This document shows, piece after piece, positions 9,305 through 30,492 of a DNA stretch of 53,132 bases. The DNA lies in the NCBI RefSeq assembly GCF_018986435.1, contig NZ_JAHMIN010000015.1, positions 97,558 through 150,689 of the forward strand. The letters run 5' to 3'. The translations under genes and the position numbers were made by a program. The notes under the pieces are model-generated. The model searched no databases and was not told the origin of the DNA. It saw only the letters and a program-made list of their open reading frames with translations. This stretch comes from Hahella sp. HN01 (GTDB lineage Bacteria; Pseudomonadota; Gammaproteobacteria; Pseudomonadales; Oleiphilaceae). Numbering within the stretch: position 1 is the first letter of the stretch; every line of letters starts with the position of its first letter.

Positions 9305-9331
9305 CAAAAAAGGGGCGCCGCCGCGCCCCTT
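9305..9331 (-). terminator. Rho-independent terminator of the minus-strand glycan operon
   Basis: On the minus strand a perfect 9-bp stem (AAGGGGCGC / GCGCCCCTT, plus-strand 9310-9318 and 9323-9331) with a 4-base loop is followed by a run of T. It lies about 35 bp after the stop of the sulfotransferase gene, so it should end transcription that began upstream of cysC. Confidence 0.85.
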
Positions 9332-9367: not shown

Positions 9368-10213
9368 TTACTGCCAGGCCGACAGATTACTGCCGGTCAA
9401 TTCGGCGACGAATTTCTTCTCGCCGGAGTAGTAGCTGCTGAGCACTTCCCGGCTGTCCGGGTCGATTTTCGGCAGCGGTTTGGAACTCACATTCAAACGC
9501 CTCAGCAGCTCAGGCACGCCGGTGCGCTTGATAACTTCCGTCAGACGGGTGTAGCCGGATTTGGCCAGCATTCGATAGGTGCGCACCATAATGTTTTCCA
9601 GAAACAGAAAACGGTAGGAACGCGCCTGATTTCTGCGCTGCTCCACGCCTTCGGGCAGGAAGTTCACATCCTGGCAGCCGAGGAATTCGTAGACTTCGCG
9701 AAAGCCTCTGGCGTAATCCTTGTTGAAATCCTCCAGCACGATGATTTTGATCTGTTCCTTGGGGAAGCTCGCAAAAAAAGGCTCCAGGTACTGGGTGTAG
9801 CAGCCGAACTTCAGGTGCTCTTCATTGCGGATAAACTCCGCGAATGAGGTGCTGCCGGCGATATCGCCTTTGCGGATAGCATGTAGGTAGTCGGAAAACG
9901 TGCGCTGCACCGGATCGCGCACAATCGCGATGATCTTGGCCTCTGGAAAATGGCGGCGTATGCGCTCCGCCGTTCCCGGCCGATACATGTACGTCACCGA
10001 GAATTCTCCCTTCAACAGGTGGTCATCGCTGCCTTTGAACTGCGACTCATACCAGGCGAATTCATGCTGATCGTACAGGTCACTGAAATAGTTAATTTCT
10101 TTCGGGTTGCCGTCGAATATTTCCGGGTGTTGCACCAGATTTTCGAAAAACCAGGTGGACCCGCATTTTCCTGAACCGATGCCGATAAAGTCGACGTTGA
10201 ATGGTTTAGCCAT
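9368..10213 (-). CDS. PAPS-dependent sulfotransferase
   Basis: This is a 281-residue cytosolic-type sulfotransferase that would move sulfate from PAPS to a hydroxyl or amino group. The 5'-phosphosulfate loop is GSGKCGSTWF at residues 13-22, with the invariant Lys and Gly-Ser-Thr. The 3'-phosphate site is RDPVQRTFSDYLHA from Arg99 through Ser107. The KEINYFSD segment (about 38-45) and the length match the heparan-sulfate-like Sulfotransfer family. It overlaps the preceding acyltransferase-like gene by 8 bases and is the last gene before a strong terminator. With cysC at the head of the same operon, PAPS supply and use are linked. The acceptor is unknown; a sugar of the glycan made by this locus is the simplest guess. 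Confidence 0.9.
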   Translation of the reverse strand: MAKPFNVDFIGIGSGKCGSTWFFENLVQHPEIFDGNPKEINYFSDLYDQHEFAWYESQFKGSDDHLLKGEFSVTYMYRPGTAERIRRHFPEAKIIAIVRDPVQRTFSDYLHAIRKGDIAGSTSFAEFIRNEEHLKFGCYTQYLEPFFASFPKEQIKIIVLEDFNKDYARGFREVYEFLGCQDVNFLPEGVEQRRNQARSYRFLFLENIMVRTYRMLAKSGYTRLTEVIKRTGVPELLRRLNVSSKPLPKIDPDSREVLSSYYSGEKKFVAELTGSNLSAWQ

Positions 10214-10787
10214 GTTGCGCCATCCTCTCCTTGGGCTCTTCCACTTTTTCCTCAGTCTTCATGGGAACGATGCGCGCGGGGTTGCCAATGGCGATCGAGT
10301 TGGCGGGCACGTCCGTGATCACCAGACTGTTCGCGCGCACCACCACGTTATCGCCGATAGTGACGTCACCCAGCACTTTGCATCCGGGTTCCAGAGTGAC
10401 GTTATCGCCAATGATCGCCAGACGCGGTTTGCCGCGAATATTGCCGACGGTCACGCCTTCATACACGGTGAAGTTCTCGCCGATCTCCTCCGCCAATACA
10501 AAGATGCCGGAAAAATTGCACACCACCATGCCCTTACCGATCCTCGCGTAGCTCTGGATGCTGATGCCGGTGAACATTTGCACCAGATAAAACAAAACGA
10601 AGTACGCTACTTTCAGCAGCAACGACAAGGGTTTGAATTTGACGGCGCCCGCCTGTCTTCCGAAGCGATACACCATCCCCGCGAGCGTCCCTCTGTGCGG
10701 CAATGCGCGCAGACAATTGGCGGTGGAGGCGTCGCCGTATAGCAGCTCCGCCTTGCGCCTCACATCCTGTTTAATGTTCGTTATCAT
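10206..10787 (-). CDS. Serine-acetyltransferase-like hexapeptide acyltransferase (copy 1)
   Basis: This is a 193-residue protein whose C-terminal half is a left-handed beta-helix built from hexapeptide repeats (IGENFTVYEGVTVGN, IGDNVTLEPGCKVLGDVTIGDN, VVVRANSLVITDVP). It ends in IAIGNPARIVP, the pattern of CysE-like transferases. The N-terminal half has a hydrophobic patch (LLLKVAYFVLFYLVQMF) not found in true CysE. The His that CysE uses for catalysis, in the DRHP segment, is not present in that form. Two related proteins lie in the same locus (10797-11396 and 18852-19427). The family is sure, but serine is an unlikely substrate; O-acylation of a sugar or lipid is inferred. Confidence 0.85.
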   Translation of the reverse strand: MITNIKQDVRRKAELLYGDASTANCLRALPHRGTLAGMVYRFGRQAGAVKFKPLSLLLKVAYFVLFYLVQMFTGISIQSYARIGKGMVVCNFSGIFVLAEEIGENFTVYEGVTVGNIRGKPRLAIIGDNVTLEPGCKVLGDVTIGDNVVVRANSLVITDVPANSIAIGNPARIVPMKTEEKVEEPKERMAQHG

Positions 10788-10796
10788 GTTCCGTCT

Positions 10797-11396
10797 TCAG
10801 TAATTAACCACCTTCTTGCCTTCCCGCTTCTCCGCCATCCAGTTGGTTTCCCGGGAGATAATGCGGGCGGGGTTTCCCATCACCGTGCAGTTGTCCGGCA
10901 CGTCGGAGATCACCACCGAGTTGGCGCCGACCACGACGTTATCGCCGATCTTCACACTGCCCAACACCTTGGCGCCGGCGCCGAGAAACACATTGTTCCC
11001 CAGCTTCGGCGGCTCCGGCTGTTCACGCAGGTGACCTGTAGTCACGCCCTGGAACACGATGCAGTTGCTGCCGATTTCGCCTTCGCTGATGAAGATGTTG
11101 GAAAAGTTGTGAATGACGAAGCCCGGGCCGATTTTGGCCTTGGAGGGAACGTAGATGCCGAACCCCAGCACCACCAGAACCTTGCCGAGGGCGTAGGGAA
11201 TATACAGAGGAATGCGCAACAGAGCGGGCTTGATGGTGCGCGCCCAGCTCCCGTAACGATAGACGATGACGGCGATGGTGCCCGGCTCCAGAAAGACCCG
11301 CACGTTACGGGTAAACCAGCTTTTCTGGCTGAGAAACCATTGCTGCTTGAATTTGACGTCCGCCTTGATCAGGCTGAAAAGTCCCATCTTATGCAT
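10797..11396 (-). CDS. Serine-acetyltransferase-like hexapeptide acyltransferase (copy 2)
   Basis: This is a 199-residue relative of its downstream neighbour. An N-terminal region has a hydrophobic segment (LRIPLYIPYALGKVLVVLGFGIYV, about residues 58-82). A hexapeptide-repeat beta-helix follows, with IGPGFVIHNFSNIFISEGEIGSN, LGNNVFLGAGAKVLGSVKIGDN and VVVGANSVVISDVPDNCTVMGNPARI. The IGPGxxIHNFS segment places a His where such enzymes use one to activate the acceptor hydroxyl. It ends 9 bp before the next gene starts. The acyl donor could be acetyl-CoA or the acyl carrier protein encoded just upstream. LpxA/LpxD show that this fold can use acyl-ACP, but nothing in the sequence decides. Confidence 0.85.
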   Translation of the reverse strand: MHKMGLFSLIKADVKFKQQWFLSQKSWFTRNVRVFLEPGTIAVIVYRYGSWARTIKPALLRIPLYIPYALGKVLVVLGFGIYVPSKAKIGPGFVIHNFSNIFISEGEIGSNCIVFQGVTTGHLREQPEPPKLGNNVFLGAGAKVLGSVKIGDNVVVGANSVVISDVPDNCTVMGNPARIISRETNWMAEKREGKKVVNY

Positions 11397-11418: not shown

Positions 11419-11670
11419 TCAGACGCCGGCGGATTCCGCTACGCATCCCGCCACATAGGTCGCCATGGCGCCGAAGGTGTCAAACGTTTCCGGCTCCAGA
11501 CTTTCGCTGTCGATCTCGATATCGAACTCTCCCTCCAACGCCACAATCAGTGAAATGCGCTGAATGGAATCCAGATTCAGGGGTTCGTCGAGACCCACTC
11601 CTTCATAATCGACGCGGGTGACGCCACCTACGACTGACTTCAAGCGTTCTAGCGTATCCGATTGGCTCAT
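11419..11670 (-). CDS. Acyl carrier protein
   Basis: This is an 83-residue acidic protein with the phosphopantetheine attachment motif LNLDSIQRISL, the modified serine being Ser35. Helices on either side match the four-helix ACP fold (LERLKSVV at the front, TFDTFGAMATYVAGCVAES at the end). It is not the housekeeping AcpP, whose motif is DSLD and which lies in the fab cluster. It is flanked by an AMP-forming ligase and a chorismate-lyase-like gene on one side and two acyltransferase-like genes on the other. That suggests a dedicated carrier which receives an acid from the ligase and passes it to a transferase. The charge chemistry is inferred from context only. Confidence 0.9.
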   Translation of the reverse strand: MSQSDTLERLKSVVGGVTRVDYEGVGLDEPLNLDSIQRISLIVALEGEFDIEIDSESLEPETFDTFGAMATYVAGCVAESAGV

Positions 11671-11744
11671 ATTATTTTCTCCATGTTCACTTCCGTTTAA
11701 GCCTTTGTTTCCGTAACCCTTTCTGCGGACTGCGCGGTGAAGCG

Positions 11745-12326
11745 TCAGCCCTTTTTGATATACAGGCGGTAGGGGAATTTCTCCGTCACCTGGATCACCG
11801 GGTTGTGACCTACATAGATATAGTAGGTGCGGCAGATCAGTTCTCCGCAGTAGTAGCTGGAGCTGCCCGGGACCACTTCCTGTTTGATTTCGCGGTAGAT
11901 GTCCGCGACCTGACGATAGGTTTCCAGACCCATTTCCCGCAGCAGCTCGCCAATACCGATTTTACCCTGAAGTAATTGATCGCTGATTTGCTCGGGAAGG
12001 TCTTGGGTTTTGATGATTGAGGTGGCGTAGGCGTATATGTCGCCGCTGTCCACGCCGCGAATGCAGACGTTGCGTCGCAATACGGTGTCGCCCTTGTAGC
12101 AGGACATTTCCTCCAGATCGTCTTCCAACGCCTGTTCGCTCTGGCCGAGTTGCTCGACCATCAACGGCTCCCAATAATAGGCTTCCAGTGTTTTGGTCAC
12201 AGTGCCGTCGGTGACCAGAAGCGTCCGCAAAATCGGCGGCATCGCAGCGATGTCGAGACTCTCATCGCGCTTGTTGGTAATGATGCCGCCAGCAATATAT
12301 CCCTTTGCTTTAAAACAATCTAACAT
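11745..12326 (-). CDS. Chorismate-pyruvate-lyase-like protein (UbiC/DUF98 family)
   Basis: This is a protein of about 193 residues. Several segments follow the pattern of the DUF98 chorismate lyases such as mycobacterial Rv2949c: LLVTDGTVTKTLEAYYWEP near the front, GKIGIGELLREMGLETYR in the middle, and CRTYYIYVGHNPVIQVTEKFP near the end. The Glu in VTEKF is at the place of the catalytic Glu of UbiC. These enzymes split chorismate into 4-hydroxybenzoate and pyruvate. An ATG at 12326 is preferred, with AAGG 8 bases before it; a GTG at 12335 is also open. It lies between the ligase and the carrier protein, so its product may be the acid that is activated. The family match comes from memory of sequence patterns and was not checked by search. 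Confidence 0.72.
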   Translation of the reverse strand: MLDCFKAKGYIAGGIITNKRDESLDIAAMPPILRTLLVTDGTVTKTLEAYYWEPLMVEQLGQSEQALEDDLEEMSCYKGDTVLRRNVCIRGVDSGDIYAYATSIIKTQDLPEQISDQLLQGKIGIGELLREMGLETYRQVADIYREIKQEVVPGSSSYYCGELICRTYYIYVGHNPVIQVTEKFPYRLYIKKG

Positions 12327-12355
12327 GCTCTCCACCTTGTACTTAACTTTGCGGA

Positions 12356-13795
12356 TTAAAGATACTTCCTGAGCACTTTGCCCAGAGGACTCTTTGGAAT
12401 TTCGTCTACGAATTCGATAATTTTCGGTGTTTTGTAGGCCGCCAGACGCTCCGCGCAGCAGGCCGCCACCATCTCCCTGGTGACGCCGACGCCGGCCTTC
12501 ACCGCCACCTTGACCATCTCGCCGTACATCCCGTCGGGTTTGCCCAAAGCCACCACTTCCAACACGCCGGGAATACGCCGGATCACTTCCTCGACATCCG
12601 CGGGATCGACTTTGTGACCGGCCACATTGATCATCAGTTTTTTGCGTCCAACGATGACCAGATTGCCTTCCTCATCCAGCCGCCCCAGGTCTCCCGTATG
12701 GTAACCGTCTTTGCGGAAGGTTTCCGCACTTAATTCCGGCAGCCCCCGGTACTCATAGGTCATGGCTGGGGAGTCGATCACCACTTCGCCTTCCTGGCCT
12801 GCGGCCACAGGCGCTCCCTCATCGTCAATCAAACGGATAACGGAGCCAGACACCGGCTTGCCGACGGAGCGAAAGTTAGCGGCCGAAACATGCGCATTCA
12901 CCGCCGCGGCGCCAGTTTCCGTAGAGCCATATAACTGCCCCAGAGGAATACCGAAGGCCTCGCGGAAGCCGGTGAATATGTCTTCCTCCAGCGGCGCTCC
13001 AGCCGTATACGCCAAACGCAATCGGCTCAAATCCGGCGCCTGCCTGAATGGCGTCATCGCCATCATTTTGCACATAAACGGCACGGAAGGCAGCAAGGTC
13101 GCCTGATATTCCGACACCAGCCGCATCATTTTTCGCGCATTGAACTCGCCGTGATGAATCAACAAGGTTCCGCCATTCATCAACGCCGCCAGGAAACAGT
13201 TGCCAAAGCCATGAGCGTGAAACAGCGGCACGCTGCAGGCGATGACGTCTTCATGGGTGATTCTCAGCGTCACGGCGGAGCCCTCCACTTCCGCCAACAC
13301 CTGCGCCTGCGTGCGCACTACCTGCTTGGGCGCGCCGGTGGAGCCGGACGAGAACATAATGACGGCGTCCGCCGCTCCTGGATAACGGACTTCCGGGGCG
13401 GCCTCATCCGTCACTGGCAACCCGTCATCCAAGCCAATCACGCAACGGGCCATCTCAGCGGGCAGCTTCGCTTCCGCGTCAGGAACGACAAAGGCGAAGC
13501 GCACTCGGGCGTTGTCGAGGTACAACGCAGTTTCCTCCTGCGTGTAAGCCACGTTTAACGGTAACAGTACGCCGCCGTTGGCCCAGACCGCCAGCGAGGT
13601 CGCCACAAAGTAAATCGAGTTGGGAACCAGCGCCGCCACCGCCTCGCCGGGACCGACGCCGGCCGCCCGCAGTTCGCGGGCGTATCCGACGGCGGCGCTG
13701 ATCATTTCGCGATAACTGTAGGAAGTCTCGCGCCAGACAACGGCTTCCTTTTCGGGAAACCGTTGCGCCTGCTCAACAAAACGTGCAAATAACAT
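12356..13795 (-). CDS. AMP-forming acyl/aryl ligase (ANL superfamily)
   Basis: This is a 479-residue adenylate-forming enzyme that activates a carboxylic acid with ATP and loads it on CoA or a carrier-protein thiol. The core motifs are all present: FSSGSTGAPKQVV (phosphate loop, about 148-160), LYGSTETGA (about 290), YHTGDLGR with the invariant Asp (about 370), and the C-terminal PKSPLGKVLRK with the catalytic Lys (about 468-478). At 479 residues it lacks the long N-terminus of fatty acyl-CoA ligases and is close in size to benzoate/hydroxybenzoate or malonate ligases. It sits just upstream of the chorismate-lyase-like gene and the ACP, which favours 4-hydroxybenzoate as substrate. This is inference; the binding pocket was not modelled. 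Confidence 0.88.
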   Translation of the reverse strand: MLFARFVEQAQRFPEKEAVVWRETSYSYREMISAAVGYARELRAAGVGPGEAVAALVPNSIYFVATSLAVWANGGVLLPLNVAYTQEETALYLDNARVRFAFVVPDAEAKLPAEMARCVIGLDDGLPVTDEAAPEVRYPGAADAVIMFSSGSTGAPKQVVRTQAQVLAEVEGSAVTLRITHEDVIACSVPLFHAHGFGNCFLAALMNGGTLLIHHGEFNARKMMRLVSEYQATLLPSVPFMCKMMAMTPFRQAPDLSRLRLAYTAGAPLEEDIFTGFREAFGIPLGQLYGSTETGAAAVNAHVSAANFRSVGKPVSGSVIRLIDDEGAPVAAGQEGEVVIDSPAMTYEYRGLPELSAETFRKDGYHTGDLGRLDEEGNLVIVGRKKLMINVAGHKVDPADVEEVIRRIPGVLEVVALGKPDGMYGEMVKVAVKAGVGVTREMVAACCAERLAAYKTPKIIEFVDEIPKSPLGKVLRKYL

Positions 13796-13812: not shown

Positions 13813-14622
13813 CTATGCTTTGGTTTGCAGCTCTTTATAGCCGGTGGCCTTCAATTTGCCGTAGAGATTGAACAGCTCCACAAACGCCTTGAAGATAACT
13901 AACGGATTGGCGCCGGTGGCGGAGCCTGACAACCTGGGATAGTGACTCACGGGCACTTGCTTGATCGTACAGTGCATCATGCCCGCCTGAGCCAGAATCT
14001 CCGTGTTGATCATGGCGCCTTCCGCCTCAATCCGAATGCTCTGGATAAAATCGCGCCGGAAAATCTTGAAGGCGCAATCAATATCCCGCACCCGAATACC
14101 GAACAGATAGCGCACCAGGGTTCCCCAACAGTAAGCGTTCAGCTTGCGATGCCAGGGATCGGCGCGCTGCGCCCGGTAACCCACCACGATGTCGTAATCG
14201 TTGATGTGCCGCAGCAGCAGGTCGACTTCCTCCAGGTCGAACTGGCCATCGGAATCCGAGAAGAAAATAAAATCCCCTCGCCCCGACTTCAGACCGGTCC
14301 TGACCGCGCCGCCATATCCCTTGTTCTGCACATGGTGAATGGGGCGCACTTCCTCATGCTCCTGACGCAGGCGTTCGAGGATATCCCGCGTGCCGTCGGA
14401 GCTGCCGTCGTTGACGACAATGATCTCTACGGTTTCAAAATGCCTTTTAAACGCTCCTATCGCCTTCAGGACCGTCATTTCTATATTCGTTTCTTCGTTA
14501 TAGGCGGGGAATACGACAGATACGCTAGATAATTTTTTATTTTGCGCGGAAACCGAAGCTTCCGTCTGGGCATCCTCTGTGGGCGCCTTATCCACCTTAC
14601 GTAATATGATGTCCGCTTCCAT
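13813..14622 (-). CDS. Family 2 glycosyltransferase, polyprenyl-phosphate (DPM1-like) type
   Basis: This is a 269-residue soluble GT2. After a 30-residue leader it has SVVFPAYNEETNIEMTV, IIVVNDGSSDGT (nucleotide site), GGAVRTGLKSGRGDFIFFSDSDGQFD (DSD metal site), and the DCAFKIFRR segment typical of DPM1/DpgS-like enzymes. It has no C-terminal membrane anchor. Such enzymes make a polyprenyl-phosphate sugar that serves as donor to GT-C transferases in the periplasm. A GT-C protein is encoded in the other arm of this locus (26727-28358), which fits. A clear AAGGA site lies 7 bases before the start. Confidence 0.88.
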   Translation of the reverse strand: MEADIILRKVDKAPTEDAQTEASVSAQNKKLSSVSVVFPAYNEETNIEMTVLKAIGAFKRHFETVEIIVVNDGSSDGTRDILERLRQEHEEVRPIHHVQNKGYGGAVRTGLKSGRGDFIFFSDSDGQFDLEEVDLLLRHINDYDIVVGYRAQRADPWHRKLNAYCWGTLVRYLFGIRVRDIDCAFKIFRRDFIQSIRIEAEGAMINTEILAQAGMMHCTIKQVPVSHYPRLSGSATGANPLVIFKAFVELFNLYGKLKATGYKELQTKA

Positions 14623-14682: not shown

Positions 14683-15747
14683 TCACGCAGCCAGAAATTT
14701 GTCCTTAGTGAACACCGTTTGCGGCGTTCGCAGCTCACGGGAACTGCGCCAGGACTGCACGCCAGATAGTTCAAAGTTGAAAGACATCACTTCCACGCCG
14801 GCTTTCACCAGCGCTTCCATCACCCGACGTTTACGGGTGGACTCACAATAGAACATCATGAAGCCGCCGCCGCCCGCGCCGCTGACTTTACCGCCCAGGG
14901 CGCCGGCTTTAATCGCGTCTTCATAAATCTGGTCGAGTTGACCGTTGGAAATGGTCGCCGCCATTTTCTTCTTCTCTTGCCATGCGTAATCCAGCAGCTT
15001 GCCGAATTCATCCGGGCGACCGGTCAGCAGCGCTTTTTTCATTTCCACTGCATGCGCCTTGAGGTTGTGCATGGCGTTCAGGCTCGCCTGGTCGTTGCGC
15101 TCTACGTTCTTGACCTGAGACTCGATGATGCGCGAAGACAACCGGTTCTTTCTGGTGTACGCCAGAATCAGGTTGTATTCGAGTTCATGAATAACCCAGG
15201 GGTCGATGCGCAGCGAGTTGACGATGACATGGTCTTTCTGGAACTCCATGAAGTTGAAGCCGCCGAAAGCACTCGCGTACTGATCCTGCATGCCCCCCAG
15301 AATCCCCAGATCGCCGCGCTCGATTTCGCAGGCGCGTCGGGCGATGTCGTAAGGGCTTAACGCCAGGTTTTTGAGTTCCCGGAAAGCCCCGATCAACGAC
15401 ACCACCATGGCTGACGAAGAGCCCAGACCGGACCCTGGCGGGGCGTCATTGTGGGTGACGATGCGTAAACCGGCGGAACCTTCGTAAAAGCGCTTGATCA
15501 CGCCTTTGGCCAGATCGCTCTCGCCATTGAATTGAAGGTCCTTGTTGGCTTTGATGCGAGTGATGCTTTCGAAATCCTGCGAGTAGATTTCTATTTGCGG
15601 AACTTCCCGCAACTCCAGATGGGTGTATGCGTATTTGTTTATGGTGACATTCAGAACATTGCCGCCATATATGTCGGAGTAGCTGGCGATATCGGTGCCG
15701 CCTCCGGCGAAGCTGATCCTTAGCGGAGCTTTTGATCGGTAAAACAT
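14683..15747 (-). CDS. hddA: GHMP sugar kinase, probable D-glycero-alpha-D-manno-heptose 7-phosphate kinase (HddA-like)
   Basis: This is a 354-residue GHMP kinase. Motif 1 is APLRISFAGGGTDIASYSD at the N-terminus, which is very typical of HddA/heptose-phosphate kinases. Motif 2, the ATP phosphate loop, is PPGSGLGSSSAMV (about residues 103-115), and motif 3 is GKVSGAGGGGFMMF near residue 290. HddA phosphorylates C1 of D-glycero-D-manno-heptose 7-phosphate on the way to GDP-heptose. The matching isomerase (GmhA) and nucleotidyltransferase are encoded together at 28373-29759 in the divergent arm. A fucokinase-like role for this family is possible but less likely, given those partners. AAAGGA lies 7 bases before the ATG. 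Confidence 0.85.
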   Translation of the reverse strand: MFYRSKAPLRISFAGGGTDIASYSDIYGGNVLNVTINKYAYTHLELREVPQIEIYSQDFESITRIKANKDLQFNGESDLAKGVIKRFYEGSAGLRIVTHNDAPPGSGLGSSSAMVVSLIGAFRELKNLALSPYDIARRACEIERGDLGILGGMQDQYASAFGGFNFMEFQKDHVIVNSLRIDPWVIHELEYNLILAYTRKNRLSSRIIESQVKNVERNDQASLNAMHNLKAHAVEMKKALLTGRPDEFGKLLDYAWQEKKKMAATISNGQLDQIYEDAIKAGALGGKVSGAGGGGFMMFYCESTRKRRVMEALVKAGVEVMSFNFELSGVQSWRSSRELRTPQTVFTKDKFLAA

Positions 15748-15823: not shown

Positions 15824-16486
15824 TCAAGAAGCGCGATACAGTGTTGCGTCCCTTTCAACAATAAATTGCTGTGCAATGAGATAACCGATAACCCTCTCCA
15901 CGCATTCGGACAGGGATACTGCATCAGTATTCAGAGTCAATTCCGGATTGACTGGCGGTTCATAAGGAGAATCAACGCCGGTGAACTTTTCGAGACGACC
16001 CGCGCGGGCTTTCTTGTACAAGCCTTTGGGGTCGCGATGTTCACAAACGTTGAGAGGCGTCGAAACATGGACCTCGACAAATTCGCCGGGCTCCAGCATT
16101 TGACGCACCATTTTTCTATCTTCGCGGAAGGGGGAGATGAAAGCGCTCAGAACGATCATGCCGCTGTCGACAAACAGCTTGGCGACTTCGCCTATTCGGC
16201 GGATGTTCTCGACCCGGGATTCGTCGGAGAAACCCAGGTCTTTGTTCAGCCCATAACGGACGTTGTCACCGTCCAACAGATAGGTGTGGCGCTGCAAGTC
16301 AAACAACTGCGCCTCCACTGCATTGGCGATCGTGGATTTGCCTGCTCCGCTAAGGCCGGTGAACCACAGTAGACAAGGCTTTTGCGTCTTGATGGACGCA
16401 CGCTGGGATTTACTGATTTTATGCTGATGCCAGACAATGTCGGCGCAGACGTCATTCCCAGACTTTATTGTATATTCCTTAGCCAC
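15824..16486 (-). CDS. cysC: Adenylylsulfate kinase CysC
   Basis: This is a 220-residue APS kinase that makes PAPS, the donor for sulfotransferases. Walker A is GLSGAGKS at about residues 44-51, followed by [47 protein letters not shown] and the lid region ending [12 protein letters not shown]. The start is taken as GTG at 16486-16484, because AGGAG sits 7 bases before it; a longer open frame back to 16612 has no ribosome site. The gene is the first of the minus arm and stands apart from any cysDN genes. With two sulfotransferase-like genes in the locus, it probably serves secondary sulfation rather than cysteine synthesis. Confidence 0.93.
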
Positions 16487-17360
16487 CGTCGTACTCCTGA
16501 AGCCATGTGCGAAACGCAAATCCGCGTTCATTTCCTTATCCGTGGGAGCAATCTCAGCAGAGTAAAGCAGCAGCCCAATGTCCTCAGCGAGGCAAAAAGC
16601 ATGCCCGAGCAAGGCGCAAAACAGGGAAAAAACGCAGATGACGCTTATATGACAGTCAGAGGAAATCGCGAAGCCGACGGGCGCCGGTTACGACCTGAGC
16701 AAATAAAGAGCTGTTTTATCTTCCACTTAAGACCGGTTTAACGATGGTCTACGCGGGAAGAAGTCGAGATAGGAGATCACGACTTTGAGCCTCCGCCTCC
16801 GTATAAAACACCGAAAAAAAATGAATTTTTTCTCACGTACCGGAATGAAAACAGCCCGATTTTTACCTCAATTTTTGATTCATTTGAGGGCGCCGATAGA
16901 GAAAAAAGGGCAGCCGCTTATGCGCTAGGTGTAAAGAAAATAATAAGATGAATGTCGATTCAGTTTACGCTTTGGCCACTTTCTCTGTTCACTTATTAAT
17001 CTCTGTAAACATTCCCGATACTTTTAACGACAAACGAAACCGGAACCGTCAATATATTTTACACATTGTTTTTGCACCACTTTTGACCACCCGGTCAGCT
17101 TATTCGCGATATCCCGCGCCACAAAAGGGTTTCCGGGCCATAGCCTCTATACATCGGGTATTTCGGCGAGAAAAAGCCGGCGTCAAAAAGGAGAATTTGC
17201 GCTCATTTATCGTCATCACCACGGGTTTTCATTTTACAAACCTGTCATCCTGCCCCTCCTCCTTTGGCTCGAATATTGCCTTTTTCGGAGTTAATAGCAG
17301 GTTAAACCTGTTTGCTTTTCAGCCAGGATCTACGTCACTTTTAGAAGGAATGCATACAAA
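16487..17360. other. A/T-rich divergent control region of the glycan locus
   Basis: This 874-bp gap separates the two divergent operons and must hold both promoters. It is clearly richer in A/T than the flanking genes, especially 16800-17080. I see a short A/T inverted repeat at about 16813-16832 (GAAAAAAAA..TTTTTTC) but no convincing -35/-10 pair on either strand. The JUMPstart/ops element found before many O-antigen operons was looked for and not seen. Short open frames in the gap have no ribosome-binding site or family resemblance and are not called. Confidence 0.6.
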
Positions 17361-18638
17361 GTGAAGCCAGAAAAAAGGAAATTTAAAATCGCCATGGTGG
17401 CGGCCTGCCCTTTCCCCGCCAATCATGGATCGCCAGCCTCCATCAGGGAAATGTCGGAAGCGCTGGTGAACCTGGGCAATGAAGTCCATATCGTCACCTA
17501 CCCTATTAAAGAGGACATTCCCGTTGTCGGGCCGCACATACATCGGGTGCGGGTTCCGGGTTTCAAGAAAAACGCCATACGGGTTGGCCCTTCCCCGGAG
17601 AAGTTTCTGTTCAACCCGCTGATGGTGTTCAAGCTCATACGCGTCATCCTCAAATACGATATCGACATTATTCACGCTCACAATTATGAAGGCGTGCTGA
17701 TAGGCTGGCTGGCCAAACTGATCACGCGCCGGCCGTTGCTGTATAACGCGGTCAACAGCATGACCGACGAGTTGCCGACCTACGACTTCTTCAAAAACAA
17801 AGATTTCGCCCGCAAGCTGGCGACTTTTCTGGACAAAACCCTGCCCTTCAAAGGCGACCATGTCACTGCAGTGTCTGATGATCTCAAACACTTTCTGGTG
17901 GAACTGGGCGTGGACGCGGACAAAATCACCGTACTGCCCGCCGGGGTCGTACCGGAGATGTTTGATAACCCCAATCCGGAGCGCATTTACGCCCGCCACC
18001 AGTTAAGCAAAGACGACCACTATCTGATTTACACAGGCAGTCTAGACGCCTTTCAGCGAATCGACTACCTGCTGGAGACAATGGCGCGAGTAGCCGCCCG
18101 CCGTAATGACGTGAAGCTGTTATTGGTCGGCAATATCTCCAACCCGGAAGCCCACCGCAAATACCAGCGCATGGCGGAGGAACTCGGCATCGCCCATCAG
18201 GTGTTGTTCTGTGATCAGGTGCCCCTGGATGAATTGCCGGACTATCTGGCGATCGCCGATGTGGCGGTGATTCCTCGTCCAGAGTGCCCGGGACATCCGG
18301 TGAAAGTCTTGAACTACATGTCCGCCGGCGTCGCCATCGCCGGCTTTCGCGGCGGCGCGAAAGGACTGACACATGAGAGCAATGCGCTGATCGTGGACAA
18401 CCATGACTGCGACGCGCTCGCCGACGCGGCGATTCAATTATTGGACGACGACGCCAAACGCCAGCGTTTGGGACAAGCCGCCCGACAGGTCGTAGACAAG
18501 TTCTACACCTGGCGGCAATTGGCGCAAGGCATTGAAGTGCTGTACGAACATTTGTATACGGGAGGAGAACGCGCGCCCAAGGAAAAGCTGCGTGAGTTCA
18601 TTCTGGAGACCTACTCTCCAAACGACGTAAGATCTTGA
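17361..18638 (+). CDS. Family 4 glycosyltransferase (GT-B fold)
   Basis: This is a 425-residue retaining glycosyltransferase. It has an N-terminal Rossmann half beginning FKIAMVAACPFPANHGSPASIREMSEAL, with an acceptor-side Gly-Ser loop, and a C-terminal donor half with DDHYLIYTGSLDAFQRIDYLLE, ADVAVIPRPECPGHPVKVLNYMSAG and AGFRGGAKGLTHESNALIV. The usual second Glu of the EX7E donor motif is replaced in this copy, which reads KVLNYMSAG. The start is GTG, with AAGGA about 10 bases upstream; the nearby ATG is in another frame and stops at once. It is the first gene of the plus arm and should add a sugar to a cytoplasmic lipid-linked acceptor. The sugar cannot be told from sequence. Confidence 0.9.
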   Translation: MKPEKRKFKIAMVAACPFPANHGSPASIREMSEALVNLGNEVHIVTYPIKEDIPVVGPHIHRVRVPGFKKNAIRVGPSPEKFLFNPLMVFKLIRVILKYDIDIIHAHNYEGVLIGWLAKLITRRPLLYNAVNSMTDELPTYDFFKNKDFARKLATFLDKTLPFKGDHVTAVSDDLKHFLVELGVDADKITVLPAGVVPEMFDNPNPERIYARHQLSKDDHYLIYTGSLDAFQRIDYLLETMARVAARRNDVKLLLVGNISNPEAHRKYQRMAEELGIAHQVLFCDQVPLDELPDYLAIADVAVIPRPECPGHPVKVLNYMSAGVAIAGFRGGAKGLTHESNALIVDNHDCDALADAAIQLLDDDAKRQRLGQAARQVVDKFYTWRQLAQGIEVLYEHLYTGGERAPKEKLREFILETYSPNDVRS

Positions 18639-18707
18639 AGTGTATAAAAGGAATGTAGTGCGGCAAGGGAGCGAACCGTCCTTTTCCAACGTCATTGAAA
18701 CGCTGGC

Positions 18708-18742
18708 GCGAATGCGCGGATTCTGGCAATCTGCGCATTCGC
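18708..18742. repeat. Long near-perfect hairpin between GT4 and acyltransferase genes
   Basis: This is a 35-base palindrome with arms GCGAATGCGC (18708-18717) and GCGCATTCGC (18733-18742). Pairing continues inward through GGATT/AATCT with one G-T wobble, giving about 15 bp closed by a 5-base loop (CTGGC). No T-run follows it, so a classical terminator is not indicated. The rest of the 213-bp gap has further GC-rich inverted repeats (for example around 18786-18801) but no gene. Confidence 0.75.
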
Positions 18743-18851
18743 CCACATGCAACGGCGAAGCCGGCGTCCGCGTCACGCCGGTGGGGCCTGGCGTCAGCGC
18801 CAGCCCAGGGAACAGGCTCTTGCAGCCGATTTATATGGAGGTTAGGTAACC

Positions 18852-19427
18852 ATGGCCGGTTTACTGGCGGCGGATATCCGCAGGAAGCGTTCACACTATG
18901 TGCGCATCGACAATTTCGTCAACAAGTACCTGAAAATCACGTTCCAGCTGGGCACGCTCTATCTGTGCTCGTACCGTCTGGGACACTACGCCGCGCGCAC
19001 GCGCAATCCCTTGTTGAAGCTGGCGGCGTGGCTTTTATATTTCCCGACCGAGTTTCTGCTGGGCTCCATTACCGGCATTCGCATTCCTCCCCGGGTCGCT
19101 ATCGGCCCCGGTCTGGTCATCCATAATTTCTCCGGCGTTTTTATAGACGCAGAAATTGTAGGCGAAGACTGCACCGTCAACCAATGCGTCACCGTCGGCC
19201 CGGACTATCAACGCAAAGGCCGTCCCCGACTGGGCGACAATGTCTTTATCGGCTCTGGCGCCAAGATTCTGGGAGACATCACCATCGGCGACAATGTGGT
19301 AGTCGCCTCCAACGCGCTGGTGATCGACTCAGTTCCGGATAACTGTACTGTCGTCGGCGCGCCAGCCCGGATCGTTTCGCGCAACAACACCAGCAGTTAT
19401 CTGAAGTTCAAGCAGCCCAAGAGTTGA
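18852..19427 (+). CDS. Serine-acetyltransferase-like hexapeptide acyltransferase (copy 3)
   Basis: This is a 191-residue protein with a membrane-associating hydrophobic segment (LLKLAAWLLYFPTEFLLGSITGI, about residues 54-76). A left-handed beta-helix follows, with IGPGLVIHNFSGVFIDAEIVGED, LGDNVFIGSGAKILGDITIGDN and VVVASNALVIDSVPDNCTVVGAPARIVSR. It is a close relative of copy 2 on the minus arm, sharing the IGPGxVIHNFS and DNVFxGxGAKxLG segments. ATG at 18852 follows GGAGGTTAGGTAACC. A role in acylating the glycan or its lipid carrier is inferred; serine acetylation is unlikely in this setting. Confidence 0.87.
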   Translation: MAGLLAADIRRKRSHYVRIDNFVNKYLKITFQLGTLYLCSYRLGHYAARTRNPLLKLAAWLLYFPTEFLLGSITGIRIPPRVAIGPGLVIHNFSGVFIDAEIVGEDCTVNQCVTVGPDYQRKGRPRLGDNVFIGSGAKILGDITIGDNVVVASNALVIDSVPDNCTVVGAPARIVSRNNTSSYLKFKQPKS

Positions 19428-19437
19428 CGGCGTACTT

Positions 19438-20016
19438 ATGGCGACCACTGTGGCCCACGCACTTTGCGGTATCGACTGTCTCCTGGCGGCCCATGCGTTG
19501 CGCGGCGGCGCGCCTATGCCCGGAGCCGCCGCGCTGGCGTTTTTCGCTCTGCTCGGCAATGCGCCGGATCTGGATATGCTGGTCGGATATGTCATCAGCG
19601 GCGACCATCTTGCTTATCACAGTCGCGCATCTCACGCGCCCGCGACGTTACTGGCTGTAGCCGCCTTATTGGCGTGGCCGCGCTGGAGACTGCTGGCGCT
19701 CTGGCCTGGCTACACGCAACGCTTCGCAGTGATAGCCTGCGCCCTGCTCAGCCACACCTTGCTGGACTTTTTCACCGGCCCGCAACGGGGGCTGTACAGC
19801 AGCTTTGGCGCGCCGCTGCTTTGGCCGTTAAGCGATGCGCGTATCTCCGCGCCGTTCACTTTATTGATTGGACCTCACCACGACACCCTGGCCCGCTTTA
19901 TCGGCTGGCGCAATGTGTGGGCGGTGGCGTCCGAGTTATTGCTGTTCGCGCCGCTCACCTGGTTGCTTTGGCGACAGGCGCGCGGGGCCCGCAACACCAT
20001 AGAAGGATTCAAATGA
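19438..20016 (+). CDS. DUF457/YdjM-type membrane-bound metal-dependent hydrolase
   Basis: This is a 192-residue inner-membrane protein with about four to five hydrophobic segments and the polar residues that mark the DUF457 family: THS-like AHALCG near the start, NAPDLDMLVGY (metal-binding Asp pair, about residues 41-51), HLAYHSRASHAP (about 57-68), and LLSHTLLDFFTG (about 101-112). E. coli YdjM belongs here, and the family is often described as a LexA-regulated membrane hydrolase, but no substrate is firmly known to me. Its TGA overlaps the ATG of the next gene (ATGA at 20013-20016), so it is translationally coupled to the adaptor protein. Confidence 0.8.
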   Translation: MATTVAHALCGIDCLLAAHALRGGAPMPGAAALAFFALLGNAPDLDMLVGYVISGDHLAYHSRASHAPATLLAVAALLAWPRWRLLALWPGYTQRFAVIACALLSHTLLDFFTGPQRGLYSSFGAPLLWPLSDARISAPFTLLIGPHHDTLARFIGWRNVWAVASELLLFAPLTWLLWRQARGARNTIEGFK

Positions 20017-21134
20017 CTGGACGCATGCTGAACATCATGAAGCGCAATTTCGTATTTTCCATCTTCATCGTGGCGATCGTCGGATTGATCGGCTTCCTGC
20101 TGCTGTCCGCCAAGAAGCATATGGAAATTACCAATACGGAAATCGCCCGCAATGTGGGGAACGCCGCGCCAGTAGAACTGCACAAAGTCGGCGCAGGCGA
20201 CGTCACCTCCCGCTTCGCCGCCACCGCCGTCGCCACGGAAGGGGTTTCCGTCGCGATACGTCCGCAAATCGAAGGCGCTATCAGGGCGCAACCAGTCAAA
20301 CTGGGCGATCTGGTGGTCGAGGGCCAGGAGCTGTTCCGGCTGGACGACACGCTCTATAAATCCAATTACACCCTGGCGAAATCCCTGGTGGAAAACCGCA
20401 AAACCTTGCTGGACTACTACAGCGCCAACCTCAGTGAAATGAAGAGTCTGCTGGAAGGCGAATATGTTTCTCAGGAGCAGTATAAAACCGCGTTTCTCAA
20501 CTTCACCCAGTCGCAAAGCAGCCTCGCCGAAGCCACTCACCAGTTTAACAACGCCAGCCAGGAGCTTAAGCAAACGCAAGTGGCTTCGCCGATATCCGGC
20601 GTCGTCAGCGAAGTGAAGAGTTTTCCCGGCGTCTATATCAAGAAAGGCGAGGAAGCGCTGGTCATCAATTCCATCGACCCGATTCTGTTCAAGATTCTGC
20701 TGCCGGAAAAAGAACTGGGCAACTTCTCACTGGGCAAAGCCGTGGATATCCGTCTGTCGGCCTTCACCAGCACCACCCTGCACGGAACAATCTATCGGGT
20801 GGACCCTGAATTGGATGAAAGCCAGGGCGCCGCCCGGGTCTACGTGCAGGCGCCCAATCCCGAGCTGATCGTGAAGCCCGGCATGACCGGCACGGTGTAT
20901 CTGGAGCAGAACAAAAACACCGTGCGCATTCCTTCCATCGCCCTGATCAATCGCTTTGACGACGACGCGGTGGTGTTTCGGGTCAGCGAGTCCGGCGCCG
21001 CGGAATTGACCCCGGTGAAAGTAGGCATCTCCGGCGACGGCTATGTGGAAATCATTGAAGGTCTGCATGTGGGAGATGAAATCGTGGTGGCGGGACAGCA
21101 GAGTCTGAAAGCCGGCGATAAGGTAAAAGGATAA
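20013..21134 (+). CDS. Periplasmic adaptor (membrane fusion) protein, RND/HlyD type
   Basis: This is a 373-residue adaptor with an N-terminal membrane anchor (about residues 12-30), a barrel-sandwich/lipoyl part (RPQIEGAIRAQPVKLGDLVVEGQELFRLDD), a short coiled-coil hairpin (about 110-185), the returning lipoyl half (TQVASPISGVVSEVKSFPGVYIKKGE), a beta-barrel domain, and a membrane-proximal domain ending GDEIVVAGQQSLKAGDKVKG. The ATG at 20013 overlaps the previous stop and has AGAAGGA before it; the longer upstream frame lies inside the hydrolase gene and is not used. It pairs with the TolC-like protein 7 bp downstream. No RND or ABC pump gene is adjacent, which is odd and is discussed as a finding. 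Confidence 0.92.
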   Translation: MTGRMLNIMKRNFVFSIFIVAIVGLIGFLLLSAKKHMEITNTEIARNVGNAAPVELHKVGAGDVTSRFAATAVATEGVSVAIRPQIEGAIRAQPVKLGDLVVEGQELFRLDDTLYKSNYTLAKSLVENRKTLLDYYSANLSEMKSLLEGEYVSQEQYKTAFLNFTQSQSSLAEATHQFNNASQELKQTQVASPISGVVSEVKSFPGVYIKKGEEALVINSIDPILFKILLPEKELGNFSLGKAVDIRLSAFTSTTLHGTIYRVDPELDESQGAARVYVQAPNPELIVKPGMTGTVYLEQNKNTVRIPSIALINRFDDDAVVFRVSESGAAELTPVKVGISGDGYVEIIEGLHVGDEIVVAGQQSLKAGDKVKG

Positions 21135-21141
21135 GGAATTC

Positions 21142-22509
21142 ATGATGTCAGCCAGGTTGTCGCTATCACTCGCCACAGGCGTCTGCATGACGTTGAGTGC
21201 GGGAATTTGTCATGGCTTTGAAGACCGCCCCGAGTTTAAGGCCCTGTTGAGTAAGATGTGCCGCACCAGCCCGCAATTGCAGGTGCAGCGTCTGGAAATC
21301 GCCTCTTTGCGCAAAGAGTTTGAATACACATCCGGACAGGCATGGTATCCAGAAGTGACTCTGAGCGCAGGGCCGCAGTACTACGAAGGCGAATCCGTGG
21401 GGAACTTCGCCTTCGAGCAGAATCAGAGCGCCTTCATCGACTCAGACAATGAAACATCCGTCAGCGGACGCCGCACCGGGTTTGTGAATCAGGCCAAGGT
21501 GGCGCTGGACGCGCCGATCTACCGCAATAGCCGCTGGGTGGGACAGGAAACCGACGACGCCGCGATTCTGCGGCAGCGCATCGAGTATGAAACCGCCAAG
21601 CATCAGAAGCTGTTTCAGGAAAGCCTGCTGGAACTGGTGGAAGTGCTGGTCTCACTGCAACAGGCGCAACAACAGGAAATTCTGCTACGGGAACTGCTGG
21701 CGGACGCCCAGTCGCAACTGGACATCGCGCGCAATGCCGCCCGCGCCCGTCTGATTGAACGCTCAGATCTGCTGGAAGCGGAAGGCGCCGTCGCTGAACT
21801 GGAAGGCGAGCTGCAACAAACCGCGAATAACCGTGACTATCTGAGCCAGAAGTTCGCATTCCTGGCGCAAACCGCCGACGCCATGCCGACGCCGGACTTC
21901 AAACTGGAATCCCTGCCTCCCGCCGGAGACCTGGAAACCCTCGTCAATGCCGCGGAGAACAGCAGCATCGACGTCATCCTGCAGCAAACCCAACTCGCCA
22001 TCGCCCGTCGCCAGTACGATCAGGCGCGTCACGATAACGGCGTGGCGTTCGGCTTGAGCGGTTCCGTCCGCGGGGTGGCGGACGAGGACTTTAGCGAGAG
22101 CAAGCATCTCACCACAGTGGGAGTCAGTCTTGAGGTGAAGCTGCAAGACACCCTGCGCGCCAGCGGCAAATCCCGCTATTGGGCGCTGCAGGTGGAAAAA
22201 GAACAGAGGCAGTTGGATCTGATCAGGGCGAATCAACGCATCGTCACCCTGCAAAATTATCGGGACTATCAACAGCAATTACTGACCCTGAAAAACTCAC
22301 TCAGCGCCCTGGATCGCGCCAGATCCGAACTGGAGAAGAACCAGGAGCTGTTTCGACTGGGCAAGGTGGGCGTCAGTGAGGTAATCGAATCCCGTTCCGA
22401 TATCCGACAAATTGAGCTGGGCAAATTGGACGCCTACGCCAAGCTGTGGCTGCTGCAATTCCGGCTGACGCCGGGCGCGCGATGGTCCTGCTCCGTAGAG
22501 GGAGATTAA
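21142..22509 (+). CDS. TolC-family outer-membrane efflux protein
   Basis: This is a 455-residue outer-membrane channel protein with a signal peptide (cleavage near residue 28, ICHGFE). Two repeated halves rich in long helices follow (for example LRKEFEYTSGQAWYPEVTLSAGP and LFQESLLELVEVLVSLQQAQQQEILL). The C-terminal half repeats the pattern (LQNYRDYQQQLLTLKNSLSALDRARSELEKNQELFRLGKVGVSEVIE). The Y-P-x-V-x-L segment is where TolC-like proteins enter the outer-membrane barrel. It follows the adaptor gene by 7 bp, and 3 bp later the flippase gene starts, so all three are in one operon. Export of a glycan, lipid or its precursor is inferred. Confidence 0.9.
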   Translation: MMSARLSLSLATGVCMTLSAGICHGFEDRPEFKALLSKMCRTSPQLQVQRLEIASLRKEFEYTSGQAWYPEVTLSAGPQYYEGESVGNFAFEQNQSAFIDSDNETSVSGRRTGFVNQAKVALDAPIYRNSRWVGQETDDAAILRQRIEYETAKHQKLFQESLLELVEVLVSLQQAQQQEILLRELLADAQSQLDIARNAARARLIERSDLLEAEGAVAELEGELQQTANNRDYLSQKFAFLAQTADAMPTPDFKLESLPPAGDLETLVNAAENSSIDVILQQTQLAIARRQYDQARHDNGVAFGLSGSVRGVADEDFSESKHLTTVGVSLEVKLQDTLRASGKSRYWALQVEKEQRQLDLIRANQRIVTLQNYRDYQQQLLTLKNSLSALDRARSELEKNQELFRLGKVGVSEVIESRSDIRQIELGKLDAYAKLWLLQFRLTPGARWSCSVEGD

Positions 22510-22512
22510 TCA

Positions 22513-23973
22513 ATGTCTTCGAACAAGAAGATTTTCCGCAATATCATCGCCACCCTGCTCGGCGAGGGCGTGGGGGCGCTGCTCAACATCTACGTCATCG
22601 TCTTGATCGCCCGCACCCTGGGACCGGAATCTTTCGGCGACTTCGCCTTCATTCTGGCGTTTGTCGGCCTGTTGCAGCTGGTCACCGACATGGGCGTCAC
22701 CAATCTGTTGGTGCGGGAAATCGCGCAGAAGGCGGAGCAATACAAGCATTTCTTCGGCAACGTGCGCCTGCTGGCCTGGGCGGTCACCCTGGTGGCCACC
22801 GCGCCCACCGCCGTTGTCTGTCTGCTGATTCTGGAGGACCGCGACTTCGGAATGAGTCTGTTCATTATGACGGTCGCCGCGTTGATCGTGTTTCACAGCG
22901 TGATCTATGGCGCGCTGTTTCGCGCCTTCGAGCGCATGGAATTCAACGCCGCCATTTTCGTCATCCACAAAGTGATTCTGTTGGCGCTCACCCTGTATTG
23001 GCGCGACCACGATCCCAGCATTCTGGCGCTGTGCGGTTACTATTTGCTGGCGAATGTCTGTCAGTTCCTGCTGTTTTACGCTTGCAGCCTGGCGGTTTTC
23101 AAACGCATTCCCTGGCGCTTTGATCCCGGCCTGTGGAAATACGTGCTTTTCGAGTCCGTTCCCATCGGCTTATCCATGATGTGTCGACGCGCCACCCTGC
23201 ATGTGGACACCCTTATCCTGAAAGCGATGGCGGCGCCGCTCGCCCTGGGGCTGTTCAACGCCGCCTATCGGGTAATACAGATAATCGAAATGCTGCCGTT
23301 CACGCTGTCTATTCCGATCTATCCCAAACTGGCCCGCCTGGCGCTTGGCGATAAAGCGGAATTCAGTCGTTTTCTCAATCAGGTGTTGAAGTTCTACGCC
23401 ATTCTGTCGCTGCCCATCGTGGCGTATGTGTTTGTCTTCGCCGAGGACATTATTGGGTTGATGTATACGCCGGAATTCGCCTCCTCCGCCAATATTCTGC
23501 AAGCGCTGGCGGTGGCGATCTTCTTTATCTTCCCCTCCTCCATCATGATTTACGTGTATTCCGCCATGGGACGGCAGCGTCTGTTCACGCTGATCTCCCT
23601 CGCCACCCTGGCCACCAACGCTATCCTGGATATTTTGCTGATACCACATCTGCACGCTTTTGGCGCAGCAGTGGGTACAGTGACCGCGGAAGCTTTATTT
23701 ATCGCCGGATCGCTCTGGTTCCTGTATCGCCAGTCTGTGCCCGTGCAATGGGTGCGCATGTCTTACAAGCCGTTGCTGGCGGCGCTACTGGCGGGCTACG
23801 CGGTGAACGCGGCTTTCGCGTCCCCGGGTCTGCTGCAGTTTATCCTGGCGTCCTTGCTGTTCGCCGTCGCCTATCTGATTCTGATTCTGGTCAGCAAAAC
23901 GCTGGATCAGCGCGAGCTGGCTTTCCTGGCGGCGCTGATCAAACGTCGTCCCGTCGGCAAAGGGGTGCAATAA
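22513..23973 (+). CDS. Wzx-like polysaccharide flippase (MOP superfamily)
   Basis: This is a 486-residue polytopic membrane protein with about 12-14 hydrophobic helices. It starts with the family signature FRNIIATLLGEGVGALLNIYVIVLIARTLGPESFGDFAFI and continues GLLQLVTDMGVTNLLVREIA. Proteins of this type flip undecaprenyl-linked oligosaccharides across the inner membrane. No Wzy polymerase or Wza/Wzc exporter was recognised in the window, so the product may be a single oligosaccharide unit rather than a polymer. It begins 3 bp after the TolC-like gene. Confidence 0.92.
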   Translation: MSSNKKIFRNIIATLLGEGVGALLNIYVIVLIARTLGPESFGDFAFILAFVGLLQLVTDMGVTNLLVREIAQKAEQYKHFFGNVRLLAWAVTLVATAPTAVVCLLILEDRDFGMSLFIMTVAALIVFHSVIYGALFRAFERMEFNAAIFVIHKVILLALTLYWRDHDPSILALCGYYLLANVCQFLLFYACSLAVFKRIPWRFDPGLWKYVLFESVPIGLSMMCRRATLHVDTLILKAMAAPLALGLFNAAYRVIQIIEMLPFTLSIPIYPKLARLALGDKAEFSRFLNQVLKFYAILSLPIVAYVFVFAEDIIGLMYTPEFASSANILQALAVAIFFIFPSSIMIYVYSAMGRQRLFTLISLATLATNAILDILLIPHLHAFGAAVGTVTAEALFIAGSLWFLYRQSVPVQWVRMSYKPLLAALLAGYAVNAAFASPGLLQFILASLLFAVAYLILILVSKTLDQRELAFLAALIKRRPVGKGVQ

Positions 23974-23977
23974 GTCC

Positions 23978-28358: not shown

Positions 28359-28372
28359 ACAAGGGGAATGAA

Positions 28373-29140: not shown

Positions 29141-29165
29141 GCCCGGACAACCAGGAGGATGACCA

Positions 29166-29759: not shown

Positions 29760-29793
29760 ACTGGAACTCACAACCACTGACAAGGACACGATT

Positions 29794-30450: not shown

Positions 30451-30463
30451 TTCCATTGCAACT

Positions 30464-30484: not shown

Positions 30485-30492
30485 TTGGCCGC

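Follow-up and report, generated by a model that had tools for sequence, protein, structure and literature searches.

Within a 53,132-nucleotide stretch of the Hahella sp. HN01 genome (the window, on the contig labelled C41 of a 7.13 Mb genome), three neighboring genes on the minus strand encode an ANL (AMP-forming) ligase, a DUF98 chorismate-lyase-like protein and an acyl carrier protein (ACP). Our comparisons of profiles, residues and gene neighborhoods support well that this trio is a real and conserved aryl-activation module. We consider it reasonably likely that the operon in which it lies serves the aromatic acyl decoration of a sulfated, probably heptose-containing surface glycan; the activation step of this route appears well supported and the transfer step plausible. 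The trio comprises:

12356..13795, minus strand: ANL ligase, predicted 4-hydroxybenzoate:ACP ligase (479 amino acids; PF00501/PF13193)
11745..12326, minus strand: predicted DUF98/Rv2949c-like chorismate lyase (4-hydroxybenzoate synthase; 193 amino acids; PF01947, PF04345)
11419..11670, minus strand: ACP with the serine of LDSI (83 amino acids; PF00550)

Results

A preliminary description of this DNA, made from the letters alone, had named the three genes at these positions, and Pfam agrees with all three calls. The ligase, described there as an ANL enzyme, matches both AMP-binding (9e-74) and AMP-binding_C (1e-11), and its P-loop and catalytic lysine positions (G151, T153, G154, K157 and G472-K473) are invariant in ten subfamily rows. 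R161, E169 and N199 are also invariant in these rows and differ in three outgroup ligases. A plasmid search with the ligase returned nothing of at least 60% identity, the eight matches listed being 32–33% identical. The LDSI site proposed for the ACP is borne out by a PP-binding match (7e-7) and by a DS motif that is kept in all eight aligned ACPs of the module. In three further Hahella genomes, the operon proteins are 94–100% identical. Profiles, conservation and synteny are concordant, which rules out a trio produced by chance or misannotation.

The lyase matches the Rv2949c-like family PF01947 with 7e-14 and 52.4 bits (cut-off 22) and, weakly, Chor_lyase PF04345 with 3e-6 and 27.3 bits, just over the cut-off of 23.6. 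The profile search of 11745-12326 against DUF98 and UbiC that had been proposed as a check hence found both families over cut-off. The gene had been given 196 codons; the gene itself stands, but its length does not, as the start is most likely the ATG at 12326 (193 amino acids) rather than the GTG at 12335 (196 amino acids), because a ribosome-site-like stretch (GGTGGAG) precedes the ATG and the L028 and L092 relatives begin at the matching residue. Arg77 and Glu156 of Escherichia coli UbiC (gene numbering), which we take to be its catalytic residues (Arg76/Glu155 of the mature protein), align to R85 and E182 of the lyase; R85 is present in 53 of 53 rows of the DUF98 alignment and E182 in 49 of 53. 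An AlphaFold2 model (mean predicted local distance difference test score, pLDDT, 79) was closest in a fold search to 2nwi, a solved DUF98 protein (TMt 0.80–0.85), and matched UbiC 1g81 more weakly (TMt 0.60, E 2e-4). Effector domains of GntR-family regulators, which have the same fold as chorismate lyase, scored between these two. We could nevertheless reject a regulator effector domain on the basis of the PF01947 and PF04345 matches, the retained Arg and Glu and the closest structure being 2nwi. Profile, Arg/Glu pair and fold thus all place the protein among the Rv2949c-like chorismate lyases, in keeping with the original DUF98 assignment, and not among the canonical UbiC proteins, whose profile it matches only weakly and whose position beside ubiA it does not share.

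Linkage of ligase and lyase across genomes

A scan with the DUF98 alignment gave 42 loci, two of which, L034 from a Lentisphaerota metagenome-assembled genome and L035 from Minicystis rosea (Myxococcota), hold a fusion in one open frame: an ANL domain comes first and a DUF98 domain second, and they are 37–39% (ANL) and 39–42% (DUF98) identical to the Hahella proteins. Such fusion to the lyase lends indirect support to 4-hydroxybenzoate as the predicted substrate of the ligase. The closest relatives of the ligase are mostly beside or fused to DUF98. Since the fusion loci had been picked by DUF98, an independent test was run with the ligase alone in three overlapping samples at the level of class (369 genomes, E <= 1e-75), phylum (398 genomes, E <= 1e-72) and order (390 genomes, E <= 1e-72). 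Seven genomes outside the genus were matched (two, one and four, respectively). DUF98 was found on the same locus in six of the seven: next to the ligase (G1089, G175) or at a distance of about 3 kb (G288), 4 kb (G1082, G1012) or 20 kb (G588). An ACP was present in all seven and stands beside DUF98 in G588. Against a background of DUF98 in 9 of 97 genomes, the Hahella HN01 genome and three same-genus locus carriers included, this frequency has a probability of 4e-6 under the binomial, which rises to 4e-5 if one of G1012 and G1082, which belong to one genus, is dropped; the four locus-bearing Hahella represent one lineage. These neighborhoods indicate that ligase and lyase are evolutionarily linked, and fusions and co-occurrence together justify the treatment of lyase, ligase and ACP as one set in the preliminary description.

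Some of these loci have neighbors of their own. In G288 (L074, 568-5561), two B12-binding radical SAM genes identified by Pfam lie between ligase and DUF98, which suggests a further modified aryl group. The Minicystis rosea fusion (L035, 6813-17379) adjoins a class-II DAHP synthase and a protein of the tryptophan halogenase family, which would fit the synthesis of a halogenated hydroxybenzoate. G921 (L095, 8716-11688) pairs an ACP with an ANL ligase from this subfamily; a GNAT-family gene adjoins them, and the 15 kb read there contain no DUF98.

Absence of canonical UbiC

A search of the Hahella sp. HN01 genome with PF04345 matched the DUF98 gene only, and among 58 genomes the four locus-bearing Hahella (G000, G001, G002 and G005) showed nothing beyond this weak DUF98 match. 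The three Hahella without the locus (G003, G004 and G006) all have a canonical UbiC; G004 carries a distant DUF98 (30%) as well. Of the 58 genomes, 11 lack canonical UbiC, and 7 of these carry DUF98, compared with 1 of the 47 genomes that have UbiC (Fisher 8e-6; 1e-3 when the genus is collapsed). The ubiA locus shows the same pattern: it reads hpt-kef-ubiC-ubiA in G004 and G006 and hpt-ubiC-ubiA in G003, and in HN01 it reads hpt-kef-ubiA, with UbiA present, 49 bases from kef to ubiA and no ubiC match (hpt and kef are names given by eye and backed by Pfam domains). PF04345 matched in none of G175, G288 and G588.

A wider survey covered 30 of the 42 DUF98 loci, that is, all except L050-L052, L055-L057, L060, L061, L065, L066, L068 and L069, and the comparison extends to the ligase-bearing genomes other than G1089, G1012, G1082 and G921. 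Canonical UbiC exceeded the cut-off in 6 of the 30 genomes, all with a DUF98 that is 25–32% identical to the HN01 lyase. It was found in none of 15 genomes with a DUF98 of at least 36% identity (genome completeness unspecified), where two matches below the cut-off were the DUF98 gene itself; 4 of these 15 belong to groups that are not expected to make ubiquinone. Nine further genomes in the low band (34% identity or less) were likewise without canonical UbiC. In the DUF98 tree, the four Hahella proteins group with L028 and G1089 (99/99 support) within a 20-row group, in which no tested genome has a canonical UbiC (G1089, G1082 and G1012 lie outside this test). A search for FkbO/Hyg5-like chorismatases (PF21168) gave no match, but its control also matched nowhere.

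As far as these searches reach, DUF98 appears to be the only chorismate lyase of HN01. With no canonical UbiC found, this lyase is very probably active, and ubiquinone synthesis probably draws its 4-hydroxybenzoate from it as well. As the only one found in the genome, it probably does not work for the glycan alone, a point that the preliminary description had missed. It could even be argued that the lyase works for ubiquinone only and lies in the operon by chance, with ligase and ACP activating an acid of another kind, such as a fatty acid or a hydroxy acid, with which the glycan is acylated. The apparent replacement of UbiC by DUF98 would fit such an arrangement, as would the stretches with a lone DUF98, 12 of 13 of which (some of them short contigs) gave no ligase match and one of which, L036, gave a distant match only (23%), and the ligase and ACP of G921 without a nearby DUF98. 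Yet Myxococcota and Lentisphaerota, in which ligase and lyase are fused, are not expected to need ubiquinone, and DUF98 is present at six of seven ligase loci, so that we regard a lyase restricted to ubiquinone as quite improbable.

The operon and the wider glycan locus

The trio occupies the center of a nine-gene run in the order APS kinase, HddA-like kinase, GT2, ANL ligase, DUF98, ACP, HexA, HexB and sulfotransferase. Its other members and the downstream boundary are:

15824..16612, minus strand: APS kinase, 3'-phosphoadenosine 5'-phosphosulfate (PAPS) supply for the sulfotransferase (PF01583 2e-69; TIGR00455 over cut-off)
14683..15747, minus strand: HddA-like D-glycero-D-manno-heptose 7-phosphate kinase (NF049969 1e-99, below cut-off with 334 of 600 bits)
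13813..14622, minus strand: GT2 glycosyltransferase (best NCBIfam match an undecaprenyl-phosphate aminoarabinose transferase, far below cut-off)
10797..11396, minus strand: HexA, hexapeptide protein (serine-acetyltransferase-like), candidate aryl-ACP:glycan transferase (PF00132; His kept)
10206..10787, minus strand: HexB, HexA paralogue with Cys or Met replacing His, possible non-catalytic partner (PF00132)
9368..10213, minus strand: sulfotransferase (PF00685/PF13469)
9310..9331, minus strand: terminator-like hairpin and T run between the sulfotransferase and pilus-type genes

From APS kinase to sulfotransferase, the intergenic gaps are 76, 60, 17, 29, 74, 22, 9 and -8 bases, and the run would be read as one transcript. 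The scan for terminator-like sites returned 12 of them, barely above shuffled sequence (mean 10.9). Past the hairpin lie pilus-type genes in which Pfam identifies a secretin and an MshEN/T2SSE ATPase; their naming as MSHA genes is otherwise by eye only. A DUF98 gene in G010 of the same family (L037, 151-1722), 42% identical to the Hahella lyase, is followed after about 70 bases by a homologue of 8031-8960, which has no Pfam match and looks MshI/PilM-like by eye, a layout that echoes the pilus-type operon downstream of the Hahella aryl operon.

The rest of the glycan locus is a divergent arm:

17361..31716, plus strand except the GH42-like gene: divergent arm
28346-29140, plus strand: HddC-like
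29166-29759, plus strand: GmhA-like
30493-31716, minus strand: GH42-like protein

On its plus strand it encodes a GT4 protein, HexC, a YdjM-like protein, HlyD, an OEP outer-membrane efflux protein, a Wzx-like flippase, a TPR protein, the protein starting at 25231, a PMT_2-like protein and the HddC- and GmhA-like proteins. The HddA and HddC matches are well below their curated cut-offs and that of GmhA just below; these three genes suggest a supply of GDP-D-glycero-D-manno-heptose for the glycan. The gene at 25231-26730 encodes a protein of 499 amino acids without Pfam match, and homologues occur in the same neighborhood of G1089 (31%) and G588 (23%).

The locus as a whole is conserved beyond the genus. 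G1089 represents another family within the order. It has the same arrangement HddA-GT2-ANL-DUF98-ACP-HexA-HexB-sulfotransferase, the eight proteins being 55–79% identical, and homologues of the divergent arm adjoin (28–71% identity). In G588, from the same phylum, it is found as two blocks on a single contig, one with a sulfotransferase, a second sulfotransferase, GT2 and ANL ligase and the other with DUF98, ACP, HexA, GT4 and APS kinase; homologues of the HlyD, flippase, TPR, PMT_2 and GH42-like genes are also present. HexA is the best-conserved operon product in both (79% in G1089; 55% in G588, just above APS kinase with 54%). The sulfotransferase is 70% and 50% identical, respectively.

The proposed transfer step

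The two hexapeptide genes and the sulfotransferase that the preliminary description had placed after the module are real according to their Pfam matches. HexA follows the ACP directly in all six genomes read (four Hahella, G1089 and G588). The His of its IHNFS motif, presumably corresponding to the catalytic His of serine acetyltransferases, is kept in six of six HexA copies and in three of three copies of HexC, but is replaced in HexB by Cys (four Hahella copies) or Met (G1089). HexA therefore combines the repeats with the His expected of an acyl-ACP hexapeptide acyltransferase, and HexB, which has no such His, is possibly a non-catalytic partner subunit of HexA. The preliminary description of this setting is supported by the recurrence of acyltransferases and sulfotransferases at other loci; it had overlooked the missing His of HexB.

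Other acyltransferases take this place elsewhere. Proteins of PF03279 (lipid A acyltransferase, LpxL-like) stand beside the ACP in G175 and G1082 (L073 and L093), and in G1012 (L094) a 94% homologue of the PF03279 protein is found in the same position. The ANL-DUF98 fusions adjoin a membrane protein, in which Pfam finds no MBOAT; its AlphaFold2 model (pLDDT 40) is uninformative, and a match to a DGAT1, an MBOAT enzyme, is below significance (E 1.9). With one query, sulfotransferase matches were obtained in the loci of G1089, G588, G175, G1082 and G1012 and none in the stretches read of G288, G921, L034 and L035. Mainly because different acyltransferases adjoin one and the same activation trio, we favor acylation of a glycan or lipid over chain extension. 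In Hahella, HexA, perhaps with HexB, would move 4-hydroxybenzoyl from the ACP to the sulfated glycan, with a sugar as the acceptor.

HexA and HexB might instead be ordinary acetyl-CoA-dependent sugar acetyltransferases, with the aryl group taking another route, e.g. to a protein or lipid. The best NCBIfam matches, serine acetyltransferases of the EpsC/CysE type and WcaB-like proteins below cut-off, are compatible with this, and HexC, a paralogue in the divergent arm, does not adjoin an ACP. However, the position of HexA directly after the ACP in six genomes, its conservation in G1089 and G588 and the acyltransferases of another family next to the ACP in G175, G1082 and G1012 make simple sugar acetylation unlikely, if still worth considering.

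The preliminary description had also pointed out that known uses of such trios involve ketosynthases and that none is present in the window. A tblastn search with one polyketide synthase-type ketosynthase from L034 agrees, as it yielded no match at E <= 1e-6 in 26 of 27 stretches, the Hahella window included; the 27th is L034, the source of the query, where Pfam confirmed the ketosynthase. With this one query, the Hahella window hence does not show the in-cluster ketosynthase typical of aryl polyene or phenolic-lipid clusters. If ketosynthases were encoded elsewhere, the trio could make an aryl starter for a polyketide or aryl lipid of the aryl polyene, alkylphenol or phenolic-lipid type. Lyase-ligase-carrier trios are known from such pathways, and the L034 fusion locus contains, besides its ketosynthase, a second AMP-binding protein reading like FAAL and an O-methyltransferase. 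Starter synthesis nonetheless seems rather improbable to us for the Hahella operon, as with this query neither the window nor the stretches covered in G1089, G588, G175, G288, G1082, G1012 and G921 gave a ketosynthase match and the recurring partners are acyltransferases, glycosyltransferases and sulfotransferases.

Discussion

The genes and their layout, the ligase-lyase fusions, the linkage, the conservation of the locus and the lack of ubiC at ubiA can be read from the sequences. From these we infer a route that comprises 4-hydroxybenzoate as lyase product and ligase substrate, its loading on the ACP, the role of HexA as the transferase, a sugar as the acceptor, the order of sulfation and the dual supply of glycan and quinone. 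DUF98 would take pyruvate off chorismate to give 4-hydroxybenzoate, which the ANL ligase would adenylate and load on the phosphopantetheine of the dedicated ACP. HexA, perhaps complexed with HexB, would then take 4-hydroxybenzoyl over from the ACP and pass it to a lipid-linked sugar, at one of its hydroxyl or amino groups; the GT2 product and GDP-heptose would be used to build this sugar. Sulfation of the same glycan would fall to the sulfotransferase, with the APS kinase as its supplier. The same lyase would also feed ubiquinone synthesis. A more far-reaching version, which we think distinctly unlikely, would have exchangeable acyltransferases (hexapeptide, LpxL-like and, less surely, the membrane protein) put ACP-borne 4-hydroxybenzoyl on a sugar and the sulfotransferase sulfate the phenol, yielding a 4-sulfooxybenzoyl glycan as an aryl sulfate ester coat, with the Hahella system having taken over the supply of the quinone precursor after loss of ubiC.

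Several observations weigh against hydroxybenzoylation of the glycan. The best solved-structure matches of the ligase are oxalate- and feruloyl-CoA ligases, and the top scores of HexA among NCBIfam models are against acetyltransferases, none over cut-off. G921 has a ligase (36%) and an ACP with no DUF98 within the 15 kb read. Within 10 kb of the nearest lone DUF98 (L028, 69%) there is no ligase match; the lyase hence does not need the module, and this relative suggests that it can fill the quinone role alone. Another type of chorismate lyase may be encoded elsewhere in the genome, and a ketosynthase elsewhere could use the aryl-ACP.

If the proposed route holds, the operon provides a small set of genes with which the hydroxybenzoylation of bacterial surface glycans can be tested. 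As the trio recurs across Pseudomonadota with differing acyltransferases, one chemical analysis could explain many loci. A glycan operon that seemingly carries a ubiquinone step is unusual and leads to a clear prediction that genetics can address. For marine bacteria, a coat of phenolic groups, sulfated or not, would also matter in adhesion, in the scavenging of radicals and in fouling. Among the matches listed from open-licence PMC articles, neither a hydroxybenzoylated bacterial glycan nor this gene set was described, which is weak evidence of novelty as subscription journals are mostly outside this collection. Hahella chejuensis makes much extracellular polysaccharide according to passages of PMC5646410. 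Passages of PMC5646410 and PMC9030710 found by word search do not concern this locus, and in PMC9030710 such a search found neither "hydroxybenz-" nor "chorismate".

Comparison with known systems

The overall logic resembles the D-alanylation of teichoic acids by DltABCD, where a small acid is attached by an ANL ligase to a carrier protein of its own and then handed on to a surface glycan by a transferase. The Hahella operon likewise combines an ANL ligase with a separate carrier, but the acid would come from chorismate and the candidate transferase is a hexapeptide protein; no MBOAT (DltB) was found among the 31 proteins of the window scanned with Pfam, which are not all of its open reading frames, and DltD was not separately searched. 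A precedent for acyl-ACP donors to sugars is provided by the hexapeptide-repeat acyltransferases LpxA and LpxD. The proposed donor of HexA differs in being an aryl-ACP, and HexA is nearer in sequence to serine-acetyltransferase-like enzymes of extracellular polysaccharide synthesis.

The mycobacterial Rv2949c/FadD22 route to phenolic glycolipids shares with the Hahella module a DUF98 lyase, a 4-hydroxybenzoate AMP-ligase and a carrier protein. In the mycobacterial route, ligase and carrier form one fused protein and a polyketide synthase takes up the product, whereas Hahella has a separate ACP, no ketosynthase match in the window and, as neighbors, acyltransferase-like proteins and a sulfotransferase. 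Aryl polyene and xanthomonadin clusters of the XanB2 type employ another family of chorismate enzyme and have ketosynthases at their center, in contrast to the Hahella window, where none was found. The likeness lies in hydroxybenzoate derived from chorismate and an AMP-ligase, a pairing that serves an aryl-polyene pigment in the case of the XanB2-type enzyme, according to PMC3949708. With UbiC, finally, the Hahella lyase has in common the fold, the Arg/Glu pair and a probable quinone role, but its best Pfam match is to another family, it sits in a glycan operon and canonical ubiC is absent. The proposed route would be a form of carrier-protein-dependent glycan acylation, and the apparent displacement of ubiC by a lyase gene of a glycan operon is a further finding.

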